Assembly: GCF_000024985.1 (NCBI RefSeq)
Contig: NC_013523.1
Span: 248,001 to 312,000, forward strand
DNA length: 64,000 nt
Source of the DNA: Sphaerobacter thermophilus DSM 20745
Lineage (GTDB): Bacteria > Chloroflexota > Chloroflexia > Thermomicrobiales > Thermomicrobiaceae
Direction of reading: 5' to 3'
Position numbers and translations under genes: made by a program. Positions 2 to 31,919 of the stretch are shown here, piece by piece (positions within the stretch are counted from its first letter, which is position 1; each line of letters starts with the position of its first letter). The notes under the pieces are model-generated. The model worked only from the letters and a program-made list of their open reading frames with translations, did not search any database and had not been told where the DNA came from.

Positions 2-574
2 CCGGCAGCGCTGGTCCCCGAGGGAGGCTGGGAGTCGTTCGCGCGCGGGTTCGCCCGGCGGTACCCCGACGCCGATACCTTCCGCCGCGCCTGTGTCGCC
101 GCGGCCGGTGGGCGAGAGTTGCGCCGGTTGACCGACATCGAGGCGGCAACCCCGTTCTCTCCGTACAATCTCCGGATCTACCGGCAGACCTACACCGGCA
201 TCCGCGACCTGCTGGCCCCGCTGGTGGCCGCCGGGGTCGCCTGCGTCGTCCCGATGCAGCCTGCGTTGCCGGGGCGTGCCTGGCTGCTGGAGGTCTGTCC
301 GGCGTCGACGCTCAAACGGGACGGCCGCTATGCTCCCTACAAAGGACGGGGTGAGGCGCGCCGCGCCGGCCGGGCCCGGATCCTGGAGGCGCTCGCGTGT
401 GTGGAGCGGGTTGCCGTGCCAGACAAGGTCCGGCGCGCTGCGCTCGACGACGCTGGCGGTGACGCGCTCGACAGCCTGCTCGCCGCAGTCGCGGCCTTCC
501 GGGCCATCACCGACCCGGCGTTTCCCGGGCCGCGCGATGGCCGGTACGTGCGCGAAGGCCGGGTGTATGTGTAA
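2..574 (+). CDS. DUF429-like protein, 5'-truncated by window edge
   Basis: The reading frame is open from base 2 and ends at TAA 572-574, so the start lies outside the window and 190 codons are visible. The visible part resembles the C-terminal half of DUF429 proteins, predicted RNase-H-fold nucleases of unknown substrate. It shows the family-like 'EVCPASTLKRDGRYAPYKG' stretch, then a helical region that ends with a conserved-looking 'DALDSLLAAVAAFRA' segment. The first methionine-like codon in the window (119) is internal: good coding sequence (GWESFARGFARRYPDADTF) continues upstream of it. The assignment rests on motif memory rather than a search. Confidence 0.6.
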   Translation, partial: PAALVPEGGWESFARGFARRYPDADTFRRACVAAAGGRELRRLTDIEAATPFSPYNLRIYRQTYTGIRDLLAPLVAAGVACVVPMQPALPGRAWLLEVCPASTLKRDGRYAPYKGRGEARRAGRARILEALACVERVAVPDKVRRAALDDAGGDALDSLLAAVAAFRAITDPAFPGPRDGRYVREGRVYV

Positions 575-28888: not shown

Positions 28889-28920
28889 CGTTCGAGCGCC
28901 GTGGGGGCGGCGCTCGAACG
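28889..28920. terminator. Hairpin between convergent genes
   Basis: A perfect 13-bp stem (CGTTCGAGCGCCG / CGGCGCTCGAACG) with a 6-base loop lies between the protease-like gene (plus) and DAHP synthase (minus). It could serve both strands; there is no U-run. The remainder of the gap 28763-28953 shows nothing else. Confidence 0.6.
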
Positions 28921-28953
28921 GGACACGAGGAGGAGTAGACCTGGTAGGCGTGG

Positions 28954-29982
28954 TCAGGCAGTGACGGCCAGCTCCGGCGTGAGGGCCGAGTGGATGGCCC
29001 GGGCCCGGGCGGCGATGGAGGCCAGTGTGTCGGGCGTGATCGACTGCGGACCGTCACACAGGGCGTCGTCAGGATCGGGTACGGCTTCGATGATCAGGCC
29101 ATGGGCTCCCGCGGCGATGCCAGCCAGGGCCATCGAGGCCACCAGGTCACGGCGCCCGGTGCCGTGGCTGGGGTCGACGATGATCGGCAGGTGGCTGAGC
29201 TGGCGGATGAGCGGGACCGCGTTCAGGTCAAGGGTGAAGCGGGTGGAGGGGTCGAAGCTGCGGATACCGCGTTCGCAGAGGATGACGCGGTCGTTGCCGC
29301 CGGCCAGGATGTACTCGGCCGAGAGCAGCCACTCCTCGATGGTGGCGGCGAAGCCGCGCTTGAGGAGGACGGGGCGATTGACGCGGGCGACGCGCTTGAG
29401 GAGCGGAAAGTTCGCCATGTTGCGGCTGCCGATCTGGAGGACATCGGCGTACTCGGCGACGAGCTCGACCTGATCCGGCTCCATCACCTCGCTGACGACC
29501 GGCATGCCGGTGGCGGCACCGGCCTCAGCGAGCAGGCGCAGGCCCTCCTCGCCGAGCCCCTGGAAGCTGTAGGGGGACGTGCGGGGCTTGAACGCGCCGC
29601 CGCGGAGCATCACCGCACCCGCTGCCCGAACCGCCTCCGCGGCCCGCAGCATCTGCTCGCGGCTCTCGACGGTACACGGCCCGGCGATGATGACCGGCTC
29701 CGGCCCGCCGATGCGGACGTTCCCGACCTGCACGACGGTCCCGGACGGGCGCGCCTCGCGCGCCGCCAGCCGGTAGGGGCGGGGCGAATCGAGAACATCC
29801 GCGACGCCCGGCAGGCTGCAGAGGGTCGGGCCGAGGTCTTCCGGGATCTGCCGGCCGTTGACACCGATGACCGGCGCGCCGCTCGAGGCGATCAGGTGGA
29901 CCTCGAAGCCCCTCGACCGCAAGTGTTCTGCAACCGATCTGGCCGCTTCCGTATCAGCGCCCTGCTGCATCCGTACGATCAT
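28954..29982 (-). CDS. aroF: 3-deoxy-7-phosphoheptulonate (DAHP) synthase
   Basis: This is a 342-residue enzyme of type I-beta (Thermotoga/Bacillus-like). It condenses PEP and erythrose-4-phosphate, the first step of the shikimate pathway. An N-terminal ferredoxin-like regulatory domain (about residues 1-70) precedes the barrel. The barrel contains 'IIAGPCTVESREQML', 'GGAFKPRTSPYSFQGLGEEG', 'LQIGSRNMANFPLLK', 'VLLKRGFAATIEEWLLSAEY' and 'PIIVDPSHGTGRRDLV', which carry the PEP- and metal-binding residues. It is monocistronic. Its 5' region holds a promoter, an aromatic-rich leader ORF, a long hairpin and an intrinsic terminator, so expression is very probably attenuated by aromatic amino-acid supply in addition to feedback inhibition. 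The symbol is a family label. Confidence 0.9.
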   Translation of the reverse strand: MIVRMQQGADTEAARSVAEHLRSRGFEVHLIASSGAPVIGVNGRQIPEDLGPTLCSLPGVADVLDSPRPYRLAAREARPSGTVVQVGNVRIGGPEPVIIAGPCTVESREQMLRAAEAVRAAGAVMLRGGAFKPRTSPYSFQGLGEEGLRLLAEAGAATGMPVVSEVMEPDQVELVAEYADVLQIGSRNMANFPLLKRVARVNRPVLLKRGFAATIEEWLLSAEYILAGGNDRVILCERGIRSFDPSTRFTLDLNAVPLIRQLSHLPIIVDPSHGTGRRDLVASMALAGIAAGAHGLIIEAVPDPDDALCDGPQSITPDTLASIAARARAIHSALTPELAVTA

Positions 29983-30039
29983 CGCCCGCGTTCCCTTCCG
30001 CCCGAGCTCACCGCCATCCGCGCCCGGATTCCGACAAAC

Positions 30040-30066
30040 AAAAAAGCAGAGGTGATTACCTCTGCT
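30040..30066 (-). terminator. Intrinsic terminator of the DAHP-synthase leader (attenuator)
   Basis: On the minus strand AGCAGAGGT (30066-30058) pairs with ACCTCTGCT (30053-30045) around a 4-base loop, followed directly by a run of T. It lies 58 bases upstream of the DAHP synthase start codon and downstream of the leader ORF, so it would end transcription before the structural gene. Confidence 0.85.
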
Positions 30067-30140
30067 CCCCTCCGACGTTGCTTGGTGGTTACGCGGCTAC
30101 CGGATCAACACCGATTGCCCCACCAGCAACGCCGGAGGGG
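30067..30140 (-). promoter_or_regulatory. Long leader hairpin abutting the terminator
   Basis: The RNA segments from 30140-30120 and 30088-30067 are complementary over about 21 bp with one G-U pair and one bulge. The 5' arm begins immediately after the aromatic codon run and the loop holds the leader stop codon (30097). Ribosome position would therefore decide whether this hairpin forms. It touches the terminator stem without a gap. Confidence 0.75.
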
Positions 30141-30207
30141 TAAAGTAAAAGTAGTACCAGTCCTGGTACTCGTATCGGTGTTGGTCGCAGTCAGTCCGCG
30201 TATCCAT
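30097..30207 (-). CDS. 36-residue aromatic-rich leader peptide of DAHP synthase
   Basis: This short ORF starts with ATG at 30207 and ends with TAG at 30097-30099. Residues 11-22 read RYEYQDWYYFYF: eight of twelve are Tyr, Phe or Trp, covering all three end products of the pathway. The rest (TPPALLVGQSVLIR) is encoded inside the long hairpin. No Shine-Dalgarno sequence is present. The predicted -10 box ends about ten bases before the ATG, so the mRNA may be leaderless or nearly so. By analogy with trp and phe leaders, slow decoding of these codons should prevent termination; the exact antiterminator is not resolved from sequence. Confidence 0.85.
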   Translation of the reverse strand: MDTRTDCDQHRYEYQDWYYFYFTPPALLVGQSVLIR

Positions 30208-30216
30208 AGTGTGGCC

Positions 30217-30245
30217 ATCGTAGCCTATCTCTCTGCCTCTGTCAA
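30217..30245 (-). promoter_or_regulatory. Sigma-70 promoter of the DAHP-synthase leader
   Basis: On the minus strand a perfect -35 TTGACA (30240-30245) and TACGAT (30217-30222, 4/6) are separated by exactly 17 bases. Transcription is expected to start around 30207-30211, which coincides with the leader ATG. Confidence 0.75.
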
Positions 30246-30359
30246 GCATTGGTGTAGAAATTCACATGCTCCTGGCCGAACGGCCAGTAGCAGGTCGGAG
30301 AGCCATGGCGTAGGATGGTTGCAGAGACGCAAAGTATTGGCTCGGAAGGTTGGTGAGCC

Positions 30360-30635
30360 ATGGGTCACGATCTCCGATCGAATCAGCCGGAGGAGACGGG
30401 CCAGGCAGCCCGCAACGAGACAGGTCGGGCCGGATATCCGCAGCCCCTGGTGTGGCTGTTTGTGGCCACGGCACTCTGCGCCGCGTCCGCGTCCCTTGTG
30501 CTCAGTGGCGTGATGGGGGACGGCGCGCCGGAAACCGCGCTTGGGAAGGCTGCTCTCGTCCTCGTCGCTATCGCGGTTGGTCTCGTCGCCGGCGGGGCCA
30601 TCGGATTCGCTGTGCGCCGCACCCAGGCGGAGTGA
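30360..30635 (+). CDS. Small two-helix membrane protein, unknown
   Basis: This is a 91-residue protein. A polar N-terminus of about 28 residues is followed by two membrane segments ('PLVWLFVATALCAASASLVL' and 'AALVLVAIAVGLVAGGAIGF') and a short basic end. No family was recognised. It is divergent from the DAHP-synthase leader and shares the 150-base intergenic region with it; GGTTGGTGAGCC before ATG 30360 is a weak ribosome site. It is convergent with the deacetylase gene. Confidence 0.55.
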   Translation: MGHDLRSNQPEETGQAARNETGRAGYPQPLVWLFVATALCAASASLVLSGVMGDGAPETALGKAALVLVAIAVGLVAGGAIGFAVRRTQAE

Positions 30636-30668
30636 GGGGCGGCCCGGGAAGAGCCACCCCCGTGACTC

Positions 30669-31919
30669 CTAGCGCGGCTGCATCGTCAGCACCTGACGGC
30701 CAAGCAGTCCGCCCATGACCCGCCAGGAGGGCGGGGCTTCAGGATGGTACTCGAAGCGTTGTCGCTCGAAGTATTGGACGGTGACCCCGTTCTCCACGAA
30801 CTCCTCGCTGATCGGGTAGCCGAAGATCGCTAGGCCACCGTTGACCCTCCAGTAGTCGCGGAATCCGAAGCAGAGGCGGTGACCGGTCTGGGGATAGAAG
30901 GTGCAGTTGGCGTCGTCCCCGCCCTGGACCGGCTGGAACGGGGCTTCTCCTGCGCGTCCGGCTGCCACCTCGCGGCCGAGGTGCCCGAGCAGCACATCGT
31001 AGCGCTCCGGCGCGGCGCCGGGATGCCACTCAAAGCGGGCCCGCTCGAAGTACTGGACGGTCACGCCGTTCTCGACGAACTCCTCGCTGATCGGGTAGCC
31101 GAAGATCCTTAGCCCACCGAATCGCTGCCAGTAGGAGAGGAACCCGTGGCCGACCCAGTGGCCGGTCTCGGGGAAGTAGCGGACGGTCGGGCCGATGCGC
31201 CCGGTGACGAACTCCTCGATGGTGGCGAAGCGGTAGCCCCGCGCACGGAGCTGGTCGATGATCCCGCCCAGCGCCAGGCCGTCCAGTGAGGTGGCGCCGA
31301 CGTGCATCAGCACGATCGCCCCAGGAGCGGCACCGGCGAGGGTTTCATGGGTGATCGCCTCGATCGAGCGGCCCTGCCAGCCGCGGGTATCGACCGACCA
31401 CATGATGTTGTAGGTGTAGCCGTTGGCTGCCAGATCCGCGAGCACGCTGTCGTTCATGGAACCGTAGGGCGGGCGGAAGTAGGGCCGCATCTCGTAGCCG
31501 GTCAGGGATCGCACCACATCCTCAGTCCGCCGGAGCTGATCGGCGCGCTGGGCTGAACCGATGACGGTGAATTCGGGGTGGTCCCAGGAGTGGTTGATGA
31601 GCTGGTGGCCCTCGTCAACCATGCGCCGGACCAGATCCGGGTTGGCCTGTGCCCAGGCGCCGGTCATCCCGAACGTGAGGCGCACGTCCTTCTCCTTGGC
31701 GGTGTCGAGGATCTGCACCGTGTAGCCGATATCGGAGCCACAATCGAAGGTGAGAGCGATCACTGGCTCATCAGTTGGGAACCGATAGATCGTCTGCACG
31801 TCGCTGGGGGCGGCAAGTGCCTGCTGTGCCGGGAGTCCCATGGCCACGAGCGCCAGGATCAGCGCCGTGACCAGGCTGGCGCAACTGACTCGCCGGGGTA
31901 CCGCCCTGTGCAGACTCAT
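30669..31919 (-). CDS. Secreted polysaccharide deacetylase with C-terminal repeat modules
   Basis: This is a 416-residue secreted enzyme of the NodB/CE4 fold. A signal peptide ends near 'AQQALAA'. The catalytic/metal residues are D59 and D63 in 'ALTFDCGSD', H110 and H114 in 'INHSWDHPEF', and the 'RPPYGSMND' motif. It removes acetyl groups from an N-acetylglucosamine polymer or similar. The last 170 residues hold two near-identical modules with 'FGYPISEEFVENGVTVQYFE' and 'R.RFE.HP', preceded by 'TGH...GF..YW...GGL.I', and probably bind the wall. ATG 31919 has GTGAGG upstream. The gap 31920-32121 shows only a partial palindrome near 32030. Confidence 0.85.
   Translation of the reverse strand: MSLHRAVPRRVSCASLVTALILALVAMGLPAQQALAAPSDVQTIYRFPTDEPVIALTFDCGSDIGYTVQILDTAKEKDVRLTFGMTGAWAQANPDLVRRMVDEGHQLINHSWDHPEFTVIGSAQRADQLRRTEDVVRSLTGYEMRPYFRPPYGSMNDSVLADLAANGYTYNIMWSVDTRGWQGRSIEAITHETLAGAAPGAIVLMHVGATSLDGLALGGIIDQLRARGYRFATIEEFVTGRIGPTVRYFPETGHWVGHGFLSYWQRFGGLRIFGYPISEEFVENGVTVQYFERARFEWHPGAAPERYDVLLGHLGREVAAGRAGEAPFQPVQGGDDANCTFYPQTGHRLCFGFRDYWRVNGGLAIFGYPISEEFVENGVTVQYFERQRFEYHPEAPPSWRVMGGLLGRQVLTMQPR

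Follow-up and report, generated by a model that had tools for sequence, protein, structure and literature searches.

Leaderless attenuation leaders have been published for Streptomyces, Corynebacterium and Sinorhizobium (PMC8079986, PMC11857589, PMC7298713). In Streptomyces lividans, leuL, trpL, ilvL, metL and thrL were recognized as such from RNA-seq (PMC8079986). They share with the leaders described below an RNA starting at the start codon, the location ahead of biosynthesis or tRNA-ligase genes and, in several cases, an intrinsic terminator; they differ in phylum and amino acids, and their transcripts come from RNA-seq, whereas ours are predicted. The attenuator RNA of Sinorhizobium meliloti trpLE(G) has its 5' end at the ATG of the leader ORF, a feature only predicted here, and differs in having a 14-codon Trp leader, and a terminated RNA and a peptide both acting in trans (PMC7298713). 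The ilvB attenuator of Corynebacterium glutamicum has been discussed as leaderless (PMC11857589). This three-hairpin ilvBNC attenuator has a leaderless leader, overlapping antiterminator and terminator hairpins, and a first hairpin which blocks initiation and acts as anti-antiterminator, features predicted for the present one as well; it differs in its Leu/Val control codons and in being backed by mutational evidence (PMC11857589). The C. glutamicum aroF leader (Phe-Tyr-Phe; PMC4046766) is also a Phe/Tyr leader preceding a DAHP synthase gene; the likeness is one of description, and common descent is not implied. T-box leaders equally respond to amino acids, and are present before trpE in relatives; here, in contrast, the sensor is a translated ORF, and the 64-kb window (the whole stretch of Sphaerobacter thermophilus DNA analyzed) has no match at gathering score in Rfam 15, T-box and attenuators included.

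A preliminary description of the locus took a start next to the ATG to be atypical of attenuation leaders, which goes too far, given the published leaderless ones. Leaderless attenuation leaders are a known kind; what is new, as far as the literature search shows, is the lineage, the RNA family, and the way leaders have naturally switched between leaderless and SD-led forms, or vary in length. No published description of this leader in Chloroflexota was found in this search, made mostly without full texts.

Promoter and leader ahead of aroF

The leader precedes an aroF gene transcribed from the minus strand of the window. Its features, in the direction of transcription, are the following.

30240..30245, minus strand: -35 element TTGACA (sequence, consensus scan, kept in relatives)
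30217..30222, minus strand: -10 element TACGAT, 17-nt spacer (sequence, consensus scan, kept in relatives)
30210, minus strand: predicted +1, an A located 3 nt ahead of the AUG, seventh base after the -10 element (from the pyrimidine-purine step)
30097..30207, minus strand: leader ORF MDTRTDCDQHRYEYQDWYYFYFTPPALLVGQSVLIR-stop, 36 codons, rich in Tyr, Phe and Trp (translation; in-frame aromatic run kept in relatives)
30174..30206, minus strand: region 1, complementary to region 2, with which it would form a helix burying the AUG (duplex energy below shuffles, nascent fold)
30142..30159, minus strand: control codons W-Y-Y-F-Y-F, UGG UAC UAC UUU UAC UUU (sequence)
30118..30140, minus strand: region A, PPALLVG codons, with the local hairpin H1, CCCC-U-CCGGC-GUU-GCUGG-U-GGGG (folding, covariation, shuffles)
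30086..30115, minus strand: region 2, last codons, stop and next bases, pairing with region 1 (duplex energy, nascent fold)
30067..30088, minus strand: region A', pairing with region A as putative antiterminator helix (fold; p<=0.01 in 34 of 42 leaders)
30040..30066, minus strand: intrinsic terminator AGCAGAGGUAAUCACCUCUGCU and U-tract (sequence, fold, covariation)
28954..29982, minus strand: regulated gene, aroF-type DAHP synthase, 3-deoxy-7-phosphoheptulonate synthase (NCBIfam TIGR01361 and NF006421, over cut-off)

Nine bases, GGCCACACT, separate TACGAT from the leader ATG (30207-30205, minus strand), and the 18 nt preceding the ATG lack any 4-mer or longer piece of AAGGAGGTGA. The -10 box shortly before the ATG and the missing Shine-Dalgarno sequence, both pointed out in the preliminary description, are therefore borne out. 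A sigma-70-like consensus scan of 28900-31000 on both strands found the aroF leader promoter, with 10 of 12 consensus matches (0.2 expected in shuffles), and no second site on either strand; promoters of other sigma factors fall outside such a scan. As the usual +1 is the seventh base after the -10 box, transcription would start at A30210, giving a 5' UTR of 3 nt and not exactly zero, and a predicted 5'-ACU-AUG RNA.

The 36-codon ORF includes the aromatic stretch ...RYEYQDWYYFYFTPPALLVG... When translations are compared across leaders, the aromatic run follows the start codon in frame, and N-termini are diverse. The biosynthetic gene is thus preceded by a short ORF in which codons for the product amino acids are clustered, and an intrinsic terminator sits between the ORF and aroF; the earlier assignment of the leader to an attenuator is supported. 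The terminator helix was defined by folding and covariation, and is absent from the pattern-scan output. The site is best explained as the place where a ribosome-mediated transcription attenuator controlling DAHP synthase has its promoter and start. On sequence evidence, the translated attenuation leader before aroF very probably has a leaderless, or nearly leaderless, start.

An ORF encoding 91 aa, two segments of which are hydrophobic (window 30360-30635, plus strand), is divergent from the aroF leader, about 115 bp from the -35 box.

Start geometry in relatives

The start position lies 6-10 nt after the -10 box in 45 of the 47 aroF leaders of the same order, and in these 45 the TAnnnT box is 17 or 18 nt from TTGAC(A/T). 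One of the 45, L013, features AGT where the start codon is expected, with leader frame and promoter distance intact, which reflects either an assembly error or a lost start; L157, from the same order, starts with GTG. The two remaining leaders have wider gaps, of 18 in L004, with an SD-like GAGGTGA, and of 25 in L043; outside the order, a true 5' UTR is present in most leaders. Leaderlessness is therefore inessential to the mechanism. Overall, a gap of 6-10 was found in 61 of 88 leaders, which include the aroF leaders of the order as well as pheS, ppdK and out-of-order loci. The 36 phylum-level loci inspected are a subset of the covariance-model matches. Counts exclude leaders on contigs cut upstream (L040/L163, L047), near-copies of L166 (L167-L171) and of L181 (L182), and L201, a weakly scoring match inside an unrelated reading frame.

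Leaders with the short gap fall into two classes, defined after inspection of the sequences. A pyrimidine directly precedes the AUG in all 26 leaders with gap 6-7, suggesting that +1 is the A of the AUG, seventh or eighth base after the -10 box. All 35 leaders with gap 8-10, the class to which the window's aroF leader belongs, have a pyrimidine-purine step at exactly -4/-3 (background YR 0.25), the purine being the sixth to eighth base after the -10 box; in 31 of these 35 a pyrimidine is found also before the AUG, so that a start on the AUG itself is possible there. As leaders are related by descent and the classes were set post hoc, these counts are not independent tests. The first ATG or GTG from the sixth base after the -10 box onward is the leader start in 57 of the 61. 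Three of the other four (L018, L022, L191) have an earlier start codon, out of frame, at -5; it precedes the predicted +1, and with a start at -3 would be outside the RNA.

Closely related leaders, compared in 17 pairs, share 0.74-0.98 of their bases in the leader itself, 0.47-0.88 in the spacer, and 0.46-0.72 over the 100 nt above the -35 box. Among aroF leaders of the order, the start spacing is kept, and divergence is seen in the centre of the -10 box, in the spacer and in the upstream flank. The low identity above the -35 box means that no conserved upstream promoter is seen. A start at, or a few bases from, the ATG, as initially proposed, thus finds support in the promoter spacing, the layout conserved in relatives and the pyrimidine-purine signature. 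The rival promoter beyond 30245 which the same description envisaged was sought, and neither another sigma-70-like site in the scanned segment nor anything conserved above the -35 box in close relatives was found.

Genes with leaderless mRNAs average 4.7% in the 4 of 12 Chloroflexi genomes in which any were detected (PMC3160421). In the whole S. thermophilus genome, an ATG occurs 4-9 nt downstream of 22 of 244 TTGACN-16..18-TANNNT sites, and of 2 of 55 sites for a control pattern. Most of the 22 precede very short ORFs, few being plausible genes, and leaderless starts are probably not a general habit of this genome. A promoter with a nearby ATG is unremarkable by base count; it is lifted above chance by its conservation in 45 of the 47 order leaders. 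Chloroflexi are reported to be poor in leaderless genes (PMC3160421), yet across an order the aromatic leader retains a leaderless arrangement. The forms of this one attenuator, whether leaderless, 3-nt or UTR-bearing, make up a natural matched set, which could be used to test the timing of leaderless initiation relative to transcription.

RNA pairing and the proposed switch

The covariance model combines hairpin H1 and the terminator. The alignment (A2) and the model (R1) were built from 37 of 42 leaders, leaving out the near-copies L010, L014, L018 and L021, and the divergent L039. H1 and the terminator together pair in 96.1% of cells; on each measure, none of the 500 shuffles and none of the slid versions does as well. 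H1 alone reaches p<=0.01 in 24 of 42 leaders, the A:A' pairing in 34 of 42. The 1:2 duplex has z<-2 in 16 of 42, 15 of which are in family f1. Folding of the nascent RNA up to the stop yields a 1:2 helix that encloses all or the core of H1 in L001, L005, L012 and L017; the RNA folds otherwise, without the nested helix, in L024 and L029. In minimum-energy folds of the full-length RNA the terminator coexists with A:A' at every ribosome position tried, and A' overlaps the terminator only slightly. In genus g6 (L016-L022) and in L004, bases of the terminator foot are common to A', and the U-tract is reached only after a longer stem. This sharing is the best indication that A' and the terminator may compete.

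UTR-bearing leaders, such as L172-L175, L178, L183, L187 and similar ones, start with ATGCTCAGC, and the complementary GCTGAGC lies close to their stop; pairing of the start codon seems retained even in leaders that are not leaderless.

PPALLVG was considered as a conserved stalling peptide, and rejected as the main cause. The H1 codons CCG, GCG and CTG vary little at their third positions; L037 (oriented 487-676) has lost one base of the hairpin codons, which shifts the frame (TPRLCWRG), and still retains the pairing; and in L043 the hairpin is preserved although its bases differ.

According to the mechanism proposed, RNA polymerase would start at A30210, making a 5'-ACU-AUG RNA; geometry and conservation are observed, the exact base is predicted. 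A ribosome would load on the 5'-terminal AUG with no Shine-Dalgarno sequence, before region 2 is made. Loading would have to be this early because regions 1 and 2, once transcribed, can form a long predicted helix including or abutting the AUG. If Tyr and Phe (and Trp) are scarce, the ribosome may stall on W-Y-Y-F-Y-F, leaving region A free for A'; the A:A' helix would compete with the terminator, at its foot or its 5' arm, and aroF would be transcribed. With an ample supply, the ribosome would reach the stop codon on region 2, A would form H1, and the terminator would act. If translation fails, the 1:2 helix would hold A from A', and the terminator would win. For the details of antitermination in this model we rate the chances as even. 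Coupling of transcription and translation from the first nucleotide, which the preliminary description had envisaged, may fairly be inferred, the more so given the nascent fold, which would bury the AUG.

The leader could have an ordinary 5' UTR, if its RNA came from an unrecognized upstream promoter or from read-through. Relatives with longer UTRs do exist (L004, L043, L158, L172-L176), and promoters of other sigma factors would have escaped the consensus scan. This origin is nonetheless very unlikely, as the segment 28900-31000 contains a single sigma-70-like site, the sequence above the -35 box is not conserved between congeners, promoter elements and spacing are kept in 45 of 47 order leaders, and the ATG would lack a usable SD even on a longer RNA. 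The RNA could, alternatively, be an untranslated structured element or a small RNA, with the aromatic run as a by-product; region A is indeed constrained as RNA, pairing being kept in L037 in spite of the changed PPALLVG frame. Against this, and making it very improbable, the aromatic run stays in frame with the start though N-termini diverge; among congeners, Tyr/Phe codons vary synonymously and the Tyr/Phe run is mostly kept, an 8-codon stretch having 9 synonymous and 15 non-synonymous changes; and the downstream genes belong to the aromatic pathway.

A leaderless leader could also control aroF translation or RNA stability rather than termination, and static folds, in which the terminator is not displaced, would suit such a role. 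We consider it unlikely, since a conserved, covarying intrinsic terminator with a U-tract is placed between leader and gene, and the foot shared with A' in g6 (L016-L022) and L004 suits termination control.

Extending the preferred reading, a leaderless or near-leaderless transcription attenuator, to the whole phylum gives a tentative picture, to which we assign slightly less than even chances: in one undescribed aromatic attenuator family of Chloroflexota the start would have moved repeatedly among leaderless (+1 = A of AUG), fixed 3-nt purine-first and UTR-bearing forms, the switch being otherwise kept, and the nascent 1:2 helix would hide the AUG, so that only ribosome loading within the first ~100 nt would work.

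Distribution of the probable attenuator family

The covariance model, now available for an attenuator with no Rfam 15 match in the window, has hits in 53 of the 158 genomes from the class, and in 67 of 400 genomes sampled across the phylum. A 20-mer from the window is found also in MAG records of Sphaerobacteraceae and Thermomicrobiaceae. One further match, L206 (16 bits), was judged a chance hit. Neither the trpE locus nor the second DAHP gene of S. thermophilus itself is matched by the covariance model. A trpE leader of similar kind was looked for in 17 upstream regions from the same clade, and no convincing peptide leader was seen. A T-box precedes trpE, at gathering score, in 3 of the 8 loci searched in the clade (L100, L103, L107), which suggests that the Trp and the Tyr/Phe branches rely on RNA sensors of different kinds.

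Family leaders mark other genes as well. They were found before prephenate dehydrogenase (tyrA; L184, gap 8, with gene matches below NCBIfam cut-offs), chorismate mutase (aroH; L195, gap 62) and pyruvate phosphate dikinase (ppdK; L150, gap 6, oriented about 912-1115). The latter enzyme can supply PEP, a substrate of DAHP synthase. Leaders before pheS, the Phe-tRNA ligase gene, have gap 9 (L146-L149, starting about 54 nt before the model match) or 25 (L158). They have one Phe only, and a His-rich stretch, SHHVHF in L146-L149 and FHHHRW in L158.
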